Source: a virus. Taken from it: DNA of 27,899 nt. A program made the position numbers and the translations under genes. Shown piece after piece: positions 7,947 through 14,823 of the stretch. The notes under the pieces were generated by a model. That model did no database searches, was not told the origin of the DNA, and worked only from the letters and a program-made list of their open reading frames with translations. The DNA lies in IMG/VR virus record IMGVR_UViG_3300045912_000014, positions 1 to 27,899 of that record, one strand, 5' to 3'. Each line of letters opens with the position of its first letter. Position 1 is the stretch's first letter.

Positions 7947-8157
7947 CGAACAGGAAGAGTATCTGTCGGCGATATTCGATTATCTTGATGATGAGGCGGG
8001 CAAGCTCACTGAATGGGAGGATGGGTTTATTAGGGACCAGTTAGTTAGGTATAATACCTATAAATCCGAAATGAGACTGTCGCCTAAGCAATGGGCCATC
8101 ATTTATAAGATAGGCGATAAGTTCGGATTGGATCGGCCTGACGGAGATGCGGGATGA
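7933..8157 (+). CDS. hypothetical protein, 74 aa (TTG start)
   Basis: The start is TTG at 7933, supported by AGGAGG (7919-7924) eight bases upstream and by the lack of another suitable start. The product is helical and acidic (LSSEQEEYLSAIFDYLDDEAGKLTEWEDGFIRDQLVRY) and ends with LSPKQWAIIYKIGDKFGL, a pattern common in small phage proteins encoded beside polymerases. The stop overlaps the polymerase ATG (ATGA), indicating translational coupling. Confidence 0.55.
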   Translation: MTLSSEQEEYLSAIFDYLDDEAGKLTEWEDGFIRDQLVRYNTYKSEMRLSPKQWAIIYKIGDKFGLDRPDGDAG

Positions 8158-10022
8158 CGCCTGATAAATCAGCTGAAGAAGTAATCAAGCGGCTGGCCGA
8201 CTCGTCTACCCAGGAATCCGTAATTGATGTGGAAACTTCCGGGCTGGACTGGCGAAAGAACAGCATCGTCGGATGGGTGTTCACGTTTGGACCACGCCCA
8301 GACGATTCTTATTATGTGCCGGTCAGGCATGGAGGGGGAGCTAATCTAAACAATTGGCCCGGATTGAAGGATGCTGAACAGAAGGACGATATTCACCCAT
8401 TTGAGATAGAACTCCAAAAAGTATTGACTCGACGCGGTAAAACCCTCAGGAACATATACCACAATGCAATGTTCGATACCATGATGGCCAGTGGTCAGGG
8501 GTTGGACTTAAGCGTTAATCTAATGGAAGATACTTCAGTTAATCAGCCGATGTTAAACGAGTATGCGCGGTCGTACAGCCTGTCGGCGTGCTGCATTGAA
8601 ATGGGCGTCCAAGAAAAGAAAGGGGAAGATCTCTACAAGCATTTGGCTAATTTATTTGGCGGCGAGCCCACCAGGGATCAGATGGGAAATTTCTGGCGGT
8701 TAGCCGGGGATGACGTAATCGGTGTTGATTATGCCGTTGGCGACGGTACTTCAACTTGGCAACTTCTCCAAGCTCAGCGCGCTGAAATTAACCGACAAGA
8801 TATGGCTAAAATTCACGATATTGAGAGGCGTCTTACGCGAACCTTGTACCGGATGACTCGCCGGGGAGTTCTGGTTAACGAAGAAAAATTACATGACACC
8901 ATCGTAGAGGTGGAGCGTCGGCTTGAGGAAGCCAGGGGTCACCTCCCGAGTGACTTTAATGAAAAGTCGCCTAAGCAAGTAGAACAATTTATGCGTAAGC
9001 ATGGGATTACCAATTGGCCCAGAACTCCTAAGGGTAAACCGTCCTTTAATAAGGAATGGCTTGAAACGAATGAACCGGGTAGGATCATCATTACCGCTCG
9101 TAAGTTTAGTCATATGCTAAATTCATTCCTGCTGCCACTCCGGGACCGGCACTTACATAACGGATACGTTCACCCCATATATCATCAGCTTCGAGACGAC
9201 GATTTTGGAACCATTACGGGCCGACTATCGTGCACCAACCCTAATTTACAGCAGGCCCATAAGAGGAACAAAGAACTAGGAAAGATTCTTCGGGCGTTAT
9301 TTCATGTTCCCCAAGGATACAAGTGGCGGTCTGCCGATTACTCTCAGTGTGAGCCGCGACTCCTAGCCCATTATGGGAAGGTTAGAGTATTGCTGGAGGG
9401 GTATTGGGCAGACCCCCCTGTTGACGCGCATAGCGCAGTCGCTGCAGAGGCGGGCATCGATCGTCAGGCCGGTAAGACCTTAAACCAGTCATTAATAACC
9501 GGGGCTGGTCGACGAAGGATTGTGTCTGAATTAGGAGACCGGGGTGATGAGATCTACGACCGGTATTTCATGGCGATGCCAGAGGTTAAGGTATTACAAG
9601 CACAGGCATCGGCCAGAATGAGGGCTGTCGGGTATATCGTCAGTCTATTGGGTAGACGGGTTCGACTTGAACCCCCTCGATACGTGGACGGAATTTATAA
9701 AGAATTTAGTTATAAGGCTGTAAACAGACTGCTGCAGACTGGTAACGCAGACATCATTAAGAAAGCCATGGTTGATATTGACGAGTATTTTGAATCAGAA
9801 GGCGATCTATGTCGGCTTCTTAACAATGTTCATGATTCGCTCGATTTCGAATATCCGGAAGACGAGGCAGGTGGACGATTAATGCAGGAGGCCATGCGGC
9901 TTATGGTAGATTACGGCCCCGGTAAGTCCGTTGAACTTCGGGTACCGATGGGGATTGAGTATGGTGACGGGAACAATTGGGCTGAGGCTACTTGGCCCGA
10001 CGAGGAGCATTATCTCCAATGA
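8154..10022 (+). CDS. dpoZ: PolA-family DNA polymerase, DpoZ type
   Basis: The 622-aa family A polymerase has an N-terminal 3'-5' exonuclease and no 5'-nuclease domain. Exo residues are intact: VIDVETSG (D25, E27), HNAMFD (D108), YAVGD (Y193, D197). Polymerase motifs: TGRLSCTNPNLQQ (355-367), motif A ADYSQCEPRLLAH (D395), motif B RQAGKTLNQSLITG (R437, K441), QTGNADIIKKAM (528-539), motif C NVHDSLDFE (D561). In motif B the positions equivalent to E. coli Pol I F762 and Y766 are Gln445 and Thr449, and motif C has Ser where Glu883 normally sits. Its place beside purZ and datZ marks it as a DpoZ candidate, the replicase that prefers dZTP over dATP. Preference itself cannot be read from the sequence. 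ATGA overlaps on both sides. Confidence 0.9.
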   Translation: MTPDKSAEEVIKRLADSSTQESVIDVETSGLDWRKNSIVGWVFTFGPRPDDSYYVPVRHGGGANLNNWPGLKDAEQKDDIHPFEIELQKVLTRRGKTLRNIYHNAMFDTMMASGQGLDLSVNLMEDTSVNQPMLNEYARSYSLSACCIEMGVQEKKGEDLYKHLANLFGGEPTRDQMGNFWRLAGDDVIGVDYAVGDGTSTWQLLQAQRAEINRQDMAKIHDIERRLTRTLYRMTRRGVLVNEEKLHDTIVEVERRLEEARGHLPSDFNEKSPKQVEQFMRKHGITNWPRTPKGKPSFNKEWLETNEPGRIIITARKFSHMLNSFLLPLRDRHLHNGYVHPIYHQLRDDDFGTITGRLSCTNPNLQQAHKRNKELGKILRALFHVPQGYKWRSADYSQCEPRLLAHYGKVRVLLEGYWADPPVDAHSAVAAEAGIDRQAGKTLNQSLITGAGRRRIVSELGDRGDEIYDRYFMAMPEVKVLQAQASARMRAVGYIVSLLGRRVRLEPPRYVDGIYKEFSYKAVNRLLQTGNADIIKKAMVDIDEYFESEGDLCRLLNNVHDSLDFEYPEDEAGGRLMQEAMRLMVDYGPGKSVELRVPMGIEYGDGNNWAEATWPDEEHYLQ

Positions 10023-10462
10023 AAGAGATCGACGCCCAATCCATGCTAATTAAGTCGATAAAGTTAAATAACGGGTACGGCCATAAGTCGTCCAATCCAT
10101 TTATACAAGGTCTTCCAGACATCTTCATCGCTCACCCCGATGCAGGTCAATATTTCAGTGAAGTTAAGATTGGAAAGTTACTTCGAACCGGGGATGTGTC
10201 TTGGACGGGTACTGATCCTCAAAAGAGATGCCTGCGTGACATGGTTAATGCCGGTCAATGGGCCTTTTGGACCATCATATGGAAGGATGACAAGTCATGG
10301 ATGCTCCGCGCTGCCCATCCGGTCACTCTAGAGTGGTTGACTCCGACATCGATGACGATATCGCCCGTTGGGTTACCGAAGGGGTGGCCAACTCTCGAAT
10401 TGATGATAGAAGTTCGGAGGGCGCTATTAAATTTGACGCGAACAAGACCCCATATCACTTAA
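10019..10462 (+). CDS. VRR-NUC-like PD-(D/E)XK nuclease, 147 aa
   Basis: The ATG at 10019 overlaps the polymerase stop (ATGA); an earlier frame start at 9992 lies within the polymerase gene. MKEIDAQSMLIKSIK opens the fold, and GLPDIFIAHPDAGQYFSEVK (31-50) supplies the nuclease core D34...E48-x-K50 with the glycine-loop typical of VRR-NUC proteins. Such phage nucleases act on branched or structured DNA during replication and recombination. A later helix (QKRCLRDMVNAGQWAFWTIIWK) matches the family layout. Its last 166 bp overlap the next gene's longest frame. Confidence 0.75.
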   Translation: MKEIDAQSMLIKSIKLNNGYGHKSSNPFIQGLPDIFIAHPDAGQYFSEVKIGKLLRTGDVSWTGTDPQKRCLRDMVNAGQWAFWTIIWKDDKSWMLRAAHPVTLEWLTPTSMTISPVGLPKGWPTLELMIEVRRALLNLTRTRPHIT

Positions 10463-10716
10463 TTTCACCGCTGTTTCTTGAGGGTCTTGCCTTGGTTCTC
10501 AAGGACGGCGCTGATAAGTATGGGGAAAGGAATTGGGAAAAGGGTATGAATTGGAGCCGGCTATATCGGGCATCATTTGGACATCAGCTTGACTGGTACA
10601 TGCGACGTGGACCGGATTCAGAAAGTGGCCTCAGCCACTTGCTGCACGCAGCGGCCTGTCTTATGATGCTGTACGAGTACGAGGTACGACGGCTCGGTAA
10701 TGACGATCGCCCCTGA
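10297..10716 (+). CDS. dATP/dGTP diphosphohydrolase-like protein (DUF5664 / dGTP_diPhyd_N family)
   Basis: Residues 42-131 match the family pattern as I know it: GAIKFDANKTPYHLISPLFLEGLALVL, KYGERNWEKGMNWSRLYRA, GHQLDWYMR, DSESGLSHLLHAAACLMMLYEYE. This is an all-alpha MazG-like fold; members in Z-phages (sometimes called MazZ) hydrolyse dGTP to dGMP, the substrate of PurZ, and also dATP. The conserved part starts only near residue 42. The first 40 residues overlap the nuclease gene by 166 bp, so the true start may lie downstream, for example at a GTG near 10333 or 10381. Immediate proximity to purZ (14 bp) supports the role. Confidence 0.8.
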   Translation: MDAPRCPSGHSRVVDSDIDDDIARWVTEGVANSRIDDRSSEGAIKFDANKTPYHLISPLFLEGLALVLKDGADKYGERNWEKGMNWSRLYRASFGHQLDWYMRRGPDSESGLSHLLHAAACLMMLYEYEVRRLGNDDRP

Positions 10717-10730
10717 TAGGAGAAGAACCG

Positions 10731-11951
10731 ATGGCTAGCAAGCTGTTAAAAACAGAATGGATCGTGCCGGGCAAGGCATCCGTATTGGTAGGCGGCCAGT
10801 TCGGGTCCGAGGCAAAGGGGCTGGCCGCCGCTTGGTTGGCGCATGAATTCATACCGGATTTTGCAAACACAGACAGCACCCTGATTTGCACCACTAATGC
10901 TGGAGCACAGGCGGGACACACAACCCAGTATGAGAATGGCTTAAAGTTTGTGTGTTATCACCTGCCAACTACCTACGTAGTCGCGCACAGCGTGGGGCTT
11001 AGAGCAATCGGATACATTAACGCGGGGGCTATAATTGATATTGAATCTTTATCGAAGGAATTAACTAGTCATAGTGGGTATATCCGTGAACGAAATCAGC
11101 ATACACTTGATGGCGGCAGCACATTTGATCATTACTTTATAAAAAATTTATGGGTGAGTCCTTTTGCTGCCACCATTGCTGATACGGACGTCGATAACGA
11201 ACGTACGGCTGGACCCAATAAGATTGCGTCCACCGGGAAGGGAGTCGGGTCCGCTCTGGCCAGTAAGATCCTAAGATCGCCGACGTTTAAAAACTATGAA
11301 AAGGCATACAAGGGTTTAGACCCGTCGGTGTCTTCACGTCTTCCAAGTGTTGGCAAAATTAGTCTAAACCATCATATGGATATAGGTCACGCGGTCATCG
11401 TGGAGGTTCCGCAAGGGACCGGCTTAAGCATCAATCATTCAGGAATGTATCCGTTTACTACTAGTCGCGATTGCTGGGTGGGATCGGGTCTCAACGATGC
11501 CGGCATACATCCGTCGTTTCTTGGGCCGGTATGCATGGTGGTGCGTACTTTTCCCATCAGAGTAGGTAATACAGTAAACGACGACGGTTCAATTAATTCA
11601 TCTGGCCCTTTCTACCCGGGGTCCGAAGAACTCGCCTGGGGTTATTTTGGCGACGATATCGTGCCAGAAAAGACAACTGTTACTAAGCGTATACGTCGCA
11701 TTGCCACGTGGTCCAGACACCAGTATCGGGAAGCGCTCTGGCTCAACCGACCTAACATAGTGTTTCTAACTTTTGTTAACTATCTAAAAAGCGTCAATGA
11801 CCTATGTGAGTTGGTTCAATGGATGGGAGAAGATGAAGAGGCAGAGGGTATTTATCCCGAGAGGATATACTCATGGGGTCCTAATGTGGAGGATTGTGGG
11901 TCATTTCATCAGGCGGTTGCTTGGCTCGGTAAGAGAGGTCCAATCCGATGA
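10731..11951 (+). CDS. purZ: PurZ, 2-amino-deoxyadenylosuccinate synthetase
   Basis: The 406-aa adenylosuccinate synthetase homologue is predicted to join dGMP and L-aspartate to give N6-succino-2-amino-dAMP; host PurB then releases dZMP. Visible PurA landmarks: VGGQFGSEAKG (20-30, PurA G-x-W-GDEGKGK), NAGAQAGHT (56-64, His63), TGKGVG (168-173), EVPQGTGLSINHSGMYPFTTS (225-245), RTFPIRVG (272-279), TKRIRRIATW (318-327). The PurA catalytic Asp (E. coli D13) is Ser26 here, the substitution known to mark PurZ. The PurA guanine-recognition KLD near the C-terminus is replaced (LTFVNYL, 346-352), consistent with ATP/dATP rather than GTP as cofactor. AGGAG precedes the ATG. Confidence 0.95.
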   Translation: MASKLLKTEWIVPGKASVLVGGQFGSEAKGLAAAWLAHEFIPDFANTDSTLICTTNAGAQAGHTTQYENGLKFVCYHLPTTYVVAHSVGLRAIGYINAGAIIDIESLSKELTSHSGYIRERNQHTLDGGSTFDHYFIKNLWVSPFAATIADTDVDNERTAGPNKIASTGKGVGSALASKILRSPTFKNYEKAYKGLDPSVSSRLPSVGKISLNHHMDIGHAVIVEVPQGTGLSINHSGMYPFTTSRDCWVGSGLNDAGIHPSFLGPVCMVVRTFPIRVGNTVNDDGSINSSGPFYPGSEELAWGYFGDDIVPEKTTVTKRIRRIATWSRHQYREALWLNRPNIVFLTFVNYLKSVNDLCELVQWMGEDEEAEGIYPERIYSWGPNVEDCGSFHQAVAWLGKRGPIR

Positions 11952-12808
11952 CTAACATAGTAATTCCCACTCCCCCTAGCATGCAGGTATATCGAGAACA
12001 TCTGCGGGAATTCTTTGCAGGTATGATGAGAAAATTAGATATGAATTCGCATAAATCAACCCCCCAAGAAAGCGATATTCCAACTATGATTAACCTATTA
12101 ACTGGGGAATTACAAGAGTTCAGAGATCAATTCATAAGTAATTCCCGTGATCCTAATGTATTAGTTGAATTGTATGATGTGGCTAATTATGCATTTTTAA
12201 TGACTGTAGCCCTTAGAAATGCGGGAACCCAAACTACTAAAGAACATTTAATTAATGAGTGGTTGGACATTCGCCCCGACGAAGGTAAAATTTTTTGTAA
12301 AAAGACGCGAGCAGGATCTCAATACAAGGTCGGGGAAGAAATTCGTGGTACGAACCGTAATGGATATATAGACATTAGACTTCAATCCGCGGGATACAAT
12401 GGTCGGGGGCTTATTATACCTAGATCGCATTTAATATGGTGGAAACACACGGGGTCGTGGCCCATTGGTGTTATTGATCACATCAATAGAAATCGGTCAG
12501 ACGACCGAGCTATAAATCTTAGAGATATTAATTTTTCACAAAATTCATTTAATTCAGACGCATCAAAGAAAAGACTTTTACCAAGGTACGTGACCCGTTA
12601 TCTTCCTTCTGGACGGCAGCATTTAAAGCATTACGGGAAATACGTGTATCAACGAAATTTTCGGGGGACTACAATTCGAGCCGCGTATTATGATACACCC
12701 GAGGCAGCATCTATTAAGGGGTCGGCCGCATGGAGGAGTAAGGTGCTTTCAAAGTTTACCGGTTTACGTCTATCGGACTTAGAATATGAGCTAGGAAAGG
12801 AAGAATAA
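11948..12808 (+). CDS. MazG-type nucleotide pyrophosphohydrolase fused to an HNH endonuclease
   Basis: The 286-aa protein starts with ATGA overlap to purZ. Residues 13-92 are a MazG-like all-alpha NTP pyrophosphohydrolase: AGMMRKLDMNSHK (24-36), LLTGELQEF with E54-x2-E57, and VELYDVANYAFLM with E74-x2-D77, the Mg2+-binding ExxE...ExxD set. Residues ~104-205 are an HNH_3-type nuclease: EWLDIRPDEGKIF, SHLIWWKHTGSWP (160-172), VIDHINRNRSDDRAINLRD (175-193), SQNSFN. The tail (YYDTPEAASIKGSAAWRSK) resembles the DNA-binding end of phage HNH proteins. The MazG part probably serves the dGTP to dGMP step (MazZ-like) or pool cleaning. The fusion probably arose when a homing endonuclease landed at the 3' end of the mazG-like gene. 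The HNH part is noticeably AT-rich. Confidence 0.85.
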   Translation: MTNIVIPTPPSMQVYREHLREFFAGMMRKLDMNSHKSTPQESDIPTMINLLTGELQEFRDQFISNSRDPNVLVELYDVANYAFLMTVALRNAGTQTTKEHLINEWLDIRPDEGKIFCKKTRAGSQYKVGEEIRGTNRNGYIDIRLQSAGYNGRGLIIPRSHLIWWKHTGSWPIGVIDHINRNRSDDRAINLRDINFSQNSFNSDASKKRLLPRYVTRYLPSGRQHLKHYGKYVYQRNFRGTTIRAAYYDTPEAASIKGSAAWRSKVLSKFTGLRLSDLEYELGKEE

Positions 12809-12811
12809 GTC

Positions 12812-13408
12812 ATGATACCACGTGAATGGAGAGAGTTGTCCTTCGTACCACGGTGGGGCATACTTCGGCGAGTAAATGATCAAAGCGTGGCCGAGCATTC
12901 CTATTACGTGGCGGTGTACGCCATGTTATTGGGTCGCGGTATGGGTCACCATGAATGGATTGTAAATGAAGCTATCCGTATGGCCTTAATCCACGACACT
13001 GAGGAAATAGTTACGGGGGATATACCCGCTCCGGCTAAGAAATACCTTGATCCAGACGACAAAAAATTTTTAAATTTTAAGAATAGGGCACACGAATTAT
13101 TAAAAATTCGGGCATCCGGAATGCCGAATGAGATATCAGTGCACATAGTTAAACTGGCTGACTTTATGGACGCGCTGGCGTACCTCGCTACAGAGATTCA
13201 AATGGGCAACCAGTCTGTATTAAAAATTCTACAGGAAATTCGTATACGTGCTGAGTTGCTGATCAAAGAAATGGACCAGCGTAACATGCTCGGTCGATGG
13301 GATCTGCCGTCCATGATGAGTATGTTGTCTAATTTTATAGAGGATCATCGTAATGGACTAAGCAACACCTTGGTGCACCCGGCGGCACGCGGACCCTTTG
13401 ATAAATGA
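12812..13408 (+). CDS. datZ: DatZ, HD-domain dATP triphosphohydrolase
   Basis: The 198-aa HD phosphohydrolase is of the YfbR/DatZ type: FVPRWGILRR (11-20), QSVAEHSYYVAVYA (24-37, His29), LIHDTEEIVTGDIPAPAKK (59-77, His61-Asp62, Glu65), KLADFMDAL (114-122, Asp117). These give the H...HD...D metal site. In Z-phages DatZ strips triphosphate from dATP specifically, clearing the competitor of dZTP so that adenine is excluded from phage DNA. The Arg-Trp pair (R14-W15) lies where the nucleotide sugar/base is contacted in known structures. It sits between the MazG-HNH gene and the helicase, with an ATGA overlap to the latter. Confidence 0.92.
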   Translation: MIPREWRELSFVPRWGILRRVNDQSVAEHSYYVAVYAMLLGRGMGHHEWIVNEAIRMALIHDTEEIVTGDIPAPAKKYLDPDDKKFLNFKNRAHELLKIRASGMPNEISVHIVKLADFMDALAYLATEIQMGNQSVLKILQEIRIRAELLIKEMDQRNMLGRWDLPSMMSMLSNFIEDHRNGLSNTLVHPAARGPFDK

Positions 13409-14823
13409 GCGACGCTACCAGATGGCACCTTAAGGGACGCCCCTATGCGGTCCAGGTGGAGGCCCTGCGCCGGTCTTTTTTAAGACGCGGGTATGGGTGG
13501 GGGATGGAGCCCGGCCTAGGAAAGACGGCCACGGCCTTAAATGAATTCATAGACTTACATTTGCGGGACAAGGTAGATTTCATAGTAGTCGTGTGTCCAA
13601 AGCACAATATGAAGACTTGGGCGGGTCAGGCAGATACATGGGGGTGGAAGAACCCTGTATTTCTATGGCCGACTAGACCCAGTGGGTCACCTCCGTACTT
13701 ATGGATAGTCAATTATGAAGCCTTGATGTATGGTGCCGATCGGGCTATCATTGAAGCCGGAAGTAAGGACGACTTCTATCTAGTTGGTGATGAAAGCCAC
13801 TGGTTTAAAAATTATAAGTCGGTATATGCAAAAAAGATGCTGATGTTGAGGGCCTACGCAAGTTTTACTAGGGCATTGACCGGAACCCCTCAGACCCGTG
13901 TTCCTCTTGACTGGTGGCCCCAGCTTAGATTTGTCCATTCAAGCATGCGTGATTCCCCCATAGTATTTCGTAACAATTTTTGTAAAGTCGGCGGCTTTAT
14001 GGGCAAGACTGTCTTAAAGGAACCTAAGGACCCGGAGGGTCTTGCCAAAGTAATAGCTGAGTGTTTCTTCATAGCGACAAAATCCGAATGGGCTAAGGAT
14101 TTACCACCTAAGCTGCCGCCTATCACTATTCAGACCGACCTGGAGGGCGTGTTGCTTAAGCACTACAAAAGTATGATGGACGATCTAATAGTGTACATTG
14201 AAGGATTCAGTAGCGCAGAAAGCATCGATGAAGTTGAGACTAAAAATATAATGGGGAGGATGAATAAGTTACAACAAATCTCCAGTGGGTTCATACGGGA
14301 TACCGACCAGGGTAGAGACATAAGGTTATTTGATATAAAGGACGTTCCTAAGACCAAGGCTTTAATAGATATACTAAATAATGCCCCGGGGAAGACTATA
14401 GTATTTACGTATTACAACGAGACTACCCGAGCCTTGTCGGGTTTGATTGAAGGGTCGGCGTGTATTCGGGGCAATCGGGACCCTTTATCACAATATAACA
14501 ATGAAAACATAAATCGATTTAACAACGACCCTGAGTGTAGAGTTCTGATAGGTTCCCTGGCAGTCACCAGTACGGGCCATACTTTGTTGGGGGACGTGTC
14601 TAAGCCGGAAACCACGTGTTCGACTACCGTGTTTTTTGAGAACTCATACGCCCTCGGTGATCGCCGTCAGGCCGAGGACAGAAACCATCGGTTCGGACAG
14701 ACTCTACCGGTAACCTATTACGATCTGGTGTCATCTGATGCAGAATGGGCCATTATCAAGTCGCTACAACAAAAAACCGATATAATCAATAATATCATCG
14801 ATTTTGTCAGAAGCTATCGCTGA
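13405..14823 (+). CDS. SNF2-family DNA helicase/translocase
   Basis: The 472-aa superfamily 2 ATPase: Walker A MEPGLGKTATALNEF (34-48), motif Ia VVVCPKHNMKTW, motif II VGDESHWFKN (DESH, 129-132), motif III LTGTPQTR (158-165), motif IV-V region KTIVFTYYNETTRAL...VLIGSLAVTSTGHTLLG and motif VI QAEDRNHRFGQTLPVTYYDLV. The HRFGQ-x-x-x-V-x-x-Y-x-L-V ending is typical of SNF2-like phage helicases. It probably supports replication or recombination by translocating on dsDNA. It overlaps datZ by ATGA, so it belongs to the same transcript. Confidence 0.88.
   Translation: MSDATRWHLKGRPYAVQVEALRRSFLRRGYGWGMEPGLGKTATALNEFIDLHLRDKVDFIVVVCPKHNMKTWAGQADTWGWKNPVFLWPTRPSGSPPYLWIVNYEALMYGADRAIIEAGSKDDFYLVGDESHWFKNYKSVYAKKMLMLRAYASFTRALTGTPQTRVPLDWWPQLRFVHSSMRDSPIVFRNNFCKVGGFMGKTVLKEPKDPEGLAKVIAECFFIATKSEWAKDLPPKLPPITIQTDLEGVLLKHYKSMMDDLIVYIEGFSSAESIDEVETKNIMGRMNKLQQISSGFIRDTDQGRDIRLFDIKDVPKTKALIDILNNAPGKTIVFTYYNETTRALSGLIEGSACIRGNRDPLSQYNNENINRFNNDPECRVLIGSLAVTSTGHTLLGDVSKPETTCSTTVFFENSYALGDRRQAEDRNHRFGQTLPVTYYDLVSSDAEWAIIKSLQQKTDIINNIIDFVRSYR

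Follow-up and report, generated by a model that had tools for sequence, protein, structure and literature searches.

A gene module for the replacement of adenine by 2-aminoadenine (Z) was characterized in the virus record IMGVR_UViG_3300045912_000014, apparently an IMG/VR fragment, whose full 27,899 bases are referred to here as the window. The module occupies positions 8154-13408 on the + strand. An initial annotation had listed five genes at this locus, a PolA-type DpoZ-like polymerase, a DUF5664-type dATP/dGTP diphosphohydrolase, PurZ, a MazG-like pyrophosphohydrolase and DatZ. All five are present, contiguous and on the + strand, and their family matches together with the synteny with Ochrobactrum phage vB_OspP_OH (OH) argue against a chance arrangement. 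Two features had been overlooked: a nuclease-like open reading frame (ORF) between the polymerase and DUF5664 genes, and an HNH part spanning two thirds of the MazG-like protein, which is therefore a MazZ-2::HNH fusion. The features are as follows.

8154-10022 (+): PolA-family polymerase with 3'-5' exonuclease, DpoZ-like in a broad sense; DNA_pol_A match 1e-50, OH-like clade.
9498-9500 (+): codon of Thr449 of the polymerase, at the position of E. coli Y766; residue comparison.
10019-10462 (+): small nuclease-like ORF, ATGA-coupled to the polymerase gene; phrog_93 endonuclease match 0.0015.
10297-10716 (+): free-standing DUF5664 (PF18909) dATP/dGTP diphosphohydrolase, start codon uncertain; PF18909 match 7e-25.
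10731-11951 (+): PurZ, 2-aminoadenylosuccinate synthetase; phrog_1211 match 8e-55, tree and residues.
10806-10808 (+): codon of Ser26 of PurZ, in place of Asp13 of PurA; residue comparison.
11948-12808 (+): MazZ-2::HNH fused protein, one ORF of 286 residues.
12236-12808 (+): HNH homing-endonuclease-type part, residues 97-286; HNH_3 match 7e-9, phrog_99 match 4e-25, alignment, tree and low GC content at third codon positions (GC3).
11948-12235 (+): MazZ-2 domain, residues 1-96; match to OH MazZ-2 at E 6e-9, invariant acidic residues, structure model and gene tree.
About 12476-12544 (+): HNH motif, residues 177-199 (D177 H178 ... N199).
12812-13408 (+): DatZ, dATP triphosphohydrolase; phrog_7076 match 3e-26, residues of S-2L DatZ kept.
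13405-14823 (+): SNF2-like helicase, ATGA-coupled to datZ; PF00176 match 3e-12.

The genes had been described as mostly ATGA-coupled. Such overlaps join polymerase and nuclease-like genes (10019-10022), purZ and mazZ (11948-11951), and datZ and the helicase gene (13405-13408), but 14 nt separate the DUF5664 gene from purZ and 3 nt separate mazZ-HNH from datZ. The two PHROG families most specific in name are phrog_1211, annotated as 2-aminooxy adenylosuccinate synthetase, and phrog_7076, annotated as dATP triphosphohydrolase. A DNA-level search of phage records with the window gave no match. By protein, the nearest phage was OH, with PolA and PurZ 33-37% identical. In OH (Wolominvirus) the Z-cluster p28-p36 has the same order of PolA, nuclease, PurZ, MazZ-2, DatZ and helicase, and in both phages the structural genes follow the cluster on the other strand. 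OH differs in its free-standing MazZ-2 (97 aa), in a small ORF before DatZ and in the lack of a detectable DUF5664 gene in the region compared; most of its cluster proteins are 30-37% identical to those of the window. The order purZ-mazZ-2-datZ-helicase was found in dozens of IMG/VR loci, and the helicase is the conserved next gene after the cluster in OH and most of these loci. At least 554 PurZ relatives were confirmed in one IMG/VR scan; scanning IMG/VR with a single PurZ protein gave no match, and an alignment query was needed to find them. Only a few isolates underlie present knowledge of Z-genomes, and the window opens up a large uncultured OH-like clade.

The synthetase was placed in a tree of 110 sequences comprising PurZ, PurZ0, bacterial PurZ-like sequences from genome contigs, and PurA. 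It was located in the PurZ half (Shimodaira-Hasegawa-like approximate likelihood ratio support, SH-aLRT, 98), apart from PurZ0 and the bacterial PurZ-like sequences (98) and from PurA (100). Grouping with PurA or PurZ0 was the outcome that the initial annotation had named as speaking against a Z module, and the enzyme fell with PurZ. The catalytic Asp13 of PurA is Ser26 in the window PurZ, within QFGSEAKG, and the guanine-recognition site TKLD of PurA reads TFVNY as in other PurZ, whereas the compared PurZ0 mostly keep the Asp. TFVNY in place of TKLD would fit the use of ATP. That the enzyme is a PurZ0- or PurA-like synthetase using GTP or IMP, in a module that would then not be of the PurZ type, appears highly improbable. 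Its loop is GSEAKG as in PurZ0 and not the usual GSTGKG, although the same loop occurs in several of its relatives, and its score with the NCBIfam PurZ model NF038379 was only 183 bits, compared with a curated cut-off of 300 bits. The tree nevertheless separates it from both groups, NY replaces LD at the guanine site, the catalytic Asp is a Ser, and its partners DatZ and MazZ-2 are typical of PurZ phages (PMC12884076). The cut-off was also missed by the PurZ of OH (241 bits) and of L108 (219 bits; L numbers denote the compared loci), while phiVC8, S-2L and SH-Ab met it, as did the PurZ0 of phage Wayne. Since a PurZ0 passes and OH-like PurZ fail, the cut-off reflects the sampled sequences and not PurZ as such, and the OH-like clade lies outside the range of assayed enzymes. 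For the closest OH-like members, both PurZ and polymerases fall below current annotation cut-offs. PurZ-like synthetases with QFGSEGKG or QYGSEGKG were also seen in bacterial genome contigs with a separate PurA (L103, L104, L105); these group near PurZ0.

DatZ of the window is identical to S-2L DatZ at 13 of 13 compared positions, among them the HD metal ligands, R19, W20, I22, P79, K81 and K116; the six named residues set dATP specificity and bind the triphosphate in S-2L DatZ (PMC8065100). The MazZ part matches MazZ-2 of OH (E 6e-9), has the expected position between purZ and datZ and keeps E54, E57, E74 and D77, which are taken as the four acidic MazZ-2 positions of PMC8342488. A Pfam search with the MazZ domain gave no match, and a sequence search of solved structures with MazZ-HNH gave nothing credible. 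An AlphaFold model of MazZ-HNH had a mean predicted local distance difference test score (pLDDT) of 87 and an N-terminal part made up of helices only. The best match to it in the PDB was 2p06 (AF_0060), which belongs to the all-alpha NTP pyrophosphatase superfamily; entries for MazG were found further down the list, and an AP2 domain was also among the weak matches. As the E-values were weak, the fold match is used as supporting evidence only. With the PurZ placement and the defining residues of DatZ, MazZ-2 and PurZ kept where they could be checked, the window very probably belongs to a Z-genome phage of the OH-like clade, with Z expected in its virion DNA. The module is very probably functional and, as a module, of an already known kind; its variant features are a mobile MazZ-2::HNH fusion and a Thr-type polymerase clade.

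Other arrangements of the cluster were observed among the compared loci. In L038 (8010-9443), PurZ (residues 8-349) and MazZ-2 (403-470) are apparently encoded by one ORF, another fusion within a Z-cluster. DatZ was undetected in the fetched stretch of 11 loci with PurZ, MazZ-2 and helicase (L062, L064, L070, L074, L078, L080, L081, L083, L084, L099 and L100), where it is either lost, moved or too divergent. L025, L032, L033 and L034 have a DUF5664 gene immediately before purZ, and their MazZ-2-like gene is located upstream of the polymerase instead of in the purZ-datZ interval.

Residues 97-286 of the fused protein correspond to a full-length phage homing-endonuclease-type HNH protein, with matches in 916 phage records, and are joined in frame near the point where free MazZ-2 proteins end. 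The motif and domain layout are those of phage homing-type HNH proteins: free HNH proteins of phages YF01, ECML-1 and Rambo resemble the fused HNH over their full length (about 28-34%) and have the DH/N motif and an AP2-like tail. The fusion was found in five phages, the window, L027, L029, L036 and L108, the last being a contig binned with a Gottesmanbacteria metagenome-assembled genome and carrying PolA, PurZ, DatZ and helicase genes. Unlike the free proteins, the five fused HNHs sit in frame on the end of MazZ-2, share a short insertion and form one clade apart from free phage HNHs (100/99). The window and L108 have an intact HNH motif. L027, L029 and L036 have lost its DH and the N downstream but retain the ORF and the C-terminal tail; the C-parts of these three are 39-54% identical and the MazZ parts 43-61%. 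The acidic MazZ residues are invariant in all fusions. IMG/VR searches with patterns from the window and L108 gave no further fusions, and an IMG/VR scan with an alignment of four fusions returned only three already known. A literature search on MazZ with HNH, with subscription papers outside its scope, gave no report of such a fusion. A similar case is that of phage ShiLan, with an HNH element inserted in a methylase gene; it is likewise a mobile HNH in a DNA-metabolism gene without a splicing element, although it is out of frame and internal, whereas the window HNH is an in-frame C-terminal fusion (PMC11855218). The window also contains a free-standing HNH gene at 2072-2494 (+; HNH_3 3e-11), which overlaps the start of a deoxyribosyltransferase gene and is not close to the mazZ-fused HNH.

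The history of the fusion differs from that of its neighbours. Between the window and L108, MazZ is 61% and HNH 60% identical, compared with 41% for PurZ, 37% for DatZ, 37% for the helicase and 44% for the polymerase. The gene trees are in conflict: the PurZ tree rejects a grouping of the window with L108 (p 2e-80) and a clade of the five fusion phages (p 3e-57), and the MazZ tree rejects the window with its PurZ sisters L008, L009, L010 and L012 (p 9e-8) and is compatible with the five-fusion clade (p 0.53); the groups were picked after the first trees were seen, which makes these p-values optimistic, but the margins are very large. Base composition is foreign as well, with a GC3 of 0.31-0.36 in mazZ-HNH (0.36 in the HNH part) and 0.48-0.54 in the flanking genes. 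The HNH occurs in some related loci and not in others and moves separately from the genes around it, as homing-type genes do. The fused HNHs share one clade, but a grouping of their phages is rejected by the PurZ tree; the mazZ-HNH unit has therefore moved between Z-phages. The simplest reading of the sequences is that the unit arose once, moved among Z-phages and displaced the resident mazZ, and homing is the likely engine of this transfer. A Z-pathway enzyme can thus be captured by a mobile nuclease.

We consider it probable that the locus is a working Z-genome module of an OH-like phage with a horizontally acquired mazZ-HNH, likely spread by homing. Following the Z pathway of PMC8342488, PMC8065100 and PMC12884076, MazZ-2, perhaps aided by the DUF5664 protein, would convert dGTP to dGMP, and PurZ would join dGMP and aspartate, using ATP, to give succino-dZMP, from which host PurB and kinases would complete dZTP. 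DatZ would destroy dATP, so that the phage polymerase places Z opposite T. In this lineage, the original mazZ would have given way to one acquired horizontally, with a complete HNH homing-endonuclease-type gene fused to its 3' end, a fusion expected to leave MazZ working. Most likely, the HNH would cut the HNH-less mazZ locus of a co-infecting phage, and repair would copy in mazZ-HNH. If homing takes place between Z-phages, the HNH must cut Z-DNA, which is resistant to part of the host restriction enzymes.

Several points weigh against this reading. Z reads as A in a sequence, so the sequence alone cannot reveal Z, and no biochemically assayed member of the OH-like clade was found. PurZ stayed below its NCBIfam cut-off, and the polymerase, with NCBIfam DpoZ as its best match, reached 290 of 500 bits; the PurZ loop is PurZ0-like. 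The window has an uncertain counterpart of R83 of S-2L MazZ, with R90 nearby, where the domain end aligns loosely. The HNH may be inactive, and the tree-test groups were chosen in hindsight.

Alternatively, the fused HNH could serve MazZ as a domesticated nuclease or as a DNA-binding module and not be a homing enzyme, for example by degrading A-containing host or competitor DNA or by tethering the dGMP supply to replicating DNA. The retention of the domain in L027, L029 and L036 despite the lost HNH residues, and its conserved AP2-like tail, would agree with this. For the window and L108, the full-length likeness to phage homing-type HNH genes, the movement of the unit and the intact motif are better explained by homing. 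Domestication is regarded as rather unlikely overall, but may still hold for the three loci with a dead motif.

The DUF5664 domain starts near 10423 within its ORF. Z-phage DUF5664 proteins hydrolyse dATP and dGTP (PMC12884076). Most of the 219 phage records matching DUF5664 belong to phages outside the PurZ hit list, including Propionibacterium/Cutibacterium, Roseobacter and other phages, with the closest 47-50% identical. The gene is present as annotated and stands free, but DUF5664 is not restricted to Z-phages and is not diagnostic of a Z module. It stands beside MazZ-2 in the window, likewise in L027 and less closely in a few others. PurZ phages mostly encode DatZ plus MazZ-2 or DUF550, the latter often fused with DUF5664, and from this description (PMC12884076) the combination of free DUF5664 and MazZ-2 seems uncommon. 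This second candidate dNTP pyrophosphohydrolase nearby bears on another explanation: Z would be made by the module, but the HNH would have damaged mazZ on invading it, leaving a fusion that decays as a selfish element, with dGMP supplied by DUF5664 or host enzymes. In its favour, dGMP is produced by the DUF5664 enzyme of phage Wayne (PMC12884076), and three of the five fusions no longer have the catalytic HNH residues. Damage to mazZ is still improbable, given open ORFs with invariant acidic MazZ residues in all fusions and a fusion retained across large divergence (MazZ parts 43-61%). The neighbouring nuclease-like ORF has, by eye, a PD-(D/E)XK-like GLPDIF...SEVKIG pattern and the same place as the 'putative nuclease' p30 of OH.

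The window polymerase has an intact exonuclease triad and HD dyad. It groups with OH in a clade of 47 rows (support 100) that is separate both from the DpoZ clade of phiVC8 and SH-Ab (99) and from PolA of non-Z phages; the branching order of the three is weakly resolved. Its description as DpoZ-like holds only in the broad sense: it is outside the phiVC8-like DpoZ clade and is without insertion 2, L455, F459 and G548, the marks of phiVC8-like DpoZ (PMC8599892), having instead Q445, T449 and N524. The NCBIfam DpoZ score was rejected as evidence of Z specificity, as the model does not discriminate: the window scores lower than L155, whose record has no PurZ. At the position of E. coli Y766, described as conserved throughout family A (PMC4882331), phiVC8-like enzymes have Phe (PMC8599892), and the window polymerase and most of its clade have Thr. 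In a polymerase-seeded IMG/VR scan, counting loci with more than 3.5 kb downstream, all 47 Thr loci, the window among them, had PurZ, compared with 3 of 8 Tyr loci and 2 of 3 Asn loci (Fisher 1e-5, uncorrected for phylogeny). Six Tyr or Asn relatives had no PurZ in their whole records, which may be fragments, and none of 17 long Tyr loci in a second scan with Tyr-polymerase seeds had PurZ. After correction for phylogeny, non-Tyr residues and PurZ gave 4 independent contrasts (mean 2.7 concordant, 0 discordant, p 0.25), and with so few contrasts this association is suggestive only. Tyr polymerases accompany PurZ in L027, L029, L036, L038, L049 and L163, and Thr is thus not required.

It is quite conceivable, at somewhat less than even chances, that the window polymerase is an ordinary PolA without Z preference, Z purity coming from DatZ and the dNTP pool as in S-2L, which manages with a non-choosing polymerase (PMC8065100). 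Its position outside the characterized DpoZ clade, the absence of the marks, the higher DpoZ score of a polymerase from a PurZ-less record and the Tyr polymerases found with PurZ all agree with this; the Thr and Tyr counts point the other way, although not significantly once phylogeny is considered. A bolder proposal, tentative and on balance doubtful, is that Z adaptation of PolA evolved independently a third time, in the lineage of the OH-like polymerases (Tyr to Thr for Z:T pairs), and that mazZ-HNH is a homing element which cuts Z-DNA and spreads by replacing a Z-pathway enzyme. T449 offers a single-residue handle on how a polymerase may come to prefer Z, with natural Tyr relatives from PurZ-less records as controls.

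Compared with characterized systems, phiVC8, SH-Ab 15497 and S-2L resemble the window in having adjacent PurZ, MazZ and DatZ, the same pathway logic (PMC8342488, PMC12884076) and the same conserved DatZ and PurZ residues. They differ in their PurZ subclade, in their PolA clade, with S-2L using PrimPol, and in having MazZ-1 or a free MazZ-2 with no HNH. The PurZ0 phages Wayne and Ghobes/Sapo have a Z pathway and the GSEAKG loop, and Wayne also DUF5664 (PMC12884076); they differ in the PurZ0 clade, in DutZ/DmtZ for DatZ/MazZ and in a DpoZ-1 polymerase.

Elsewhere in the window, positions 1-2000 have a GC content of 0.63-0.65, compared with 0.42-0.61 in the remainder; the longest ORF checked there had no PHROGs or Pfam match. 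A nucleoside deoxyribosyltransferase-family gene at 2454-2888 (+; phrog_12607 2e-48) was observed in this PurZ-type phage. It was rejected as a DmtZ, with BLAST E-values of 1.6 or worse against the deoxyribosyltransferase proteins of Sapo and Wayne, and its relatives are in Rhizobium phage RR1-B and mycobacteriophages.

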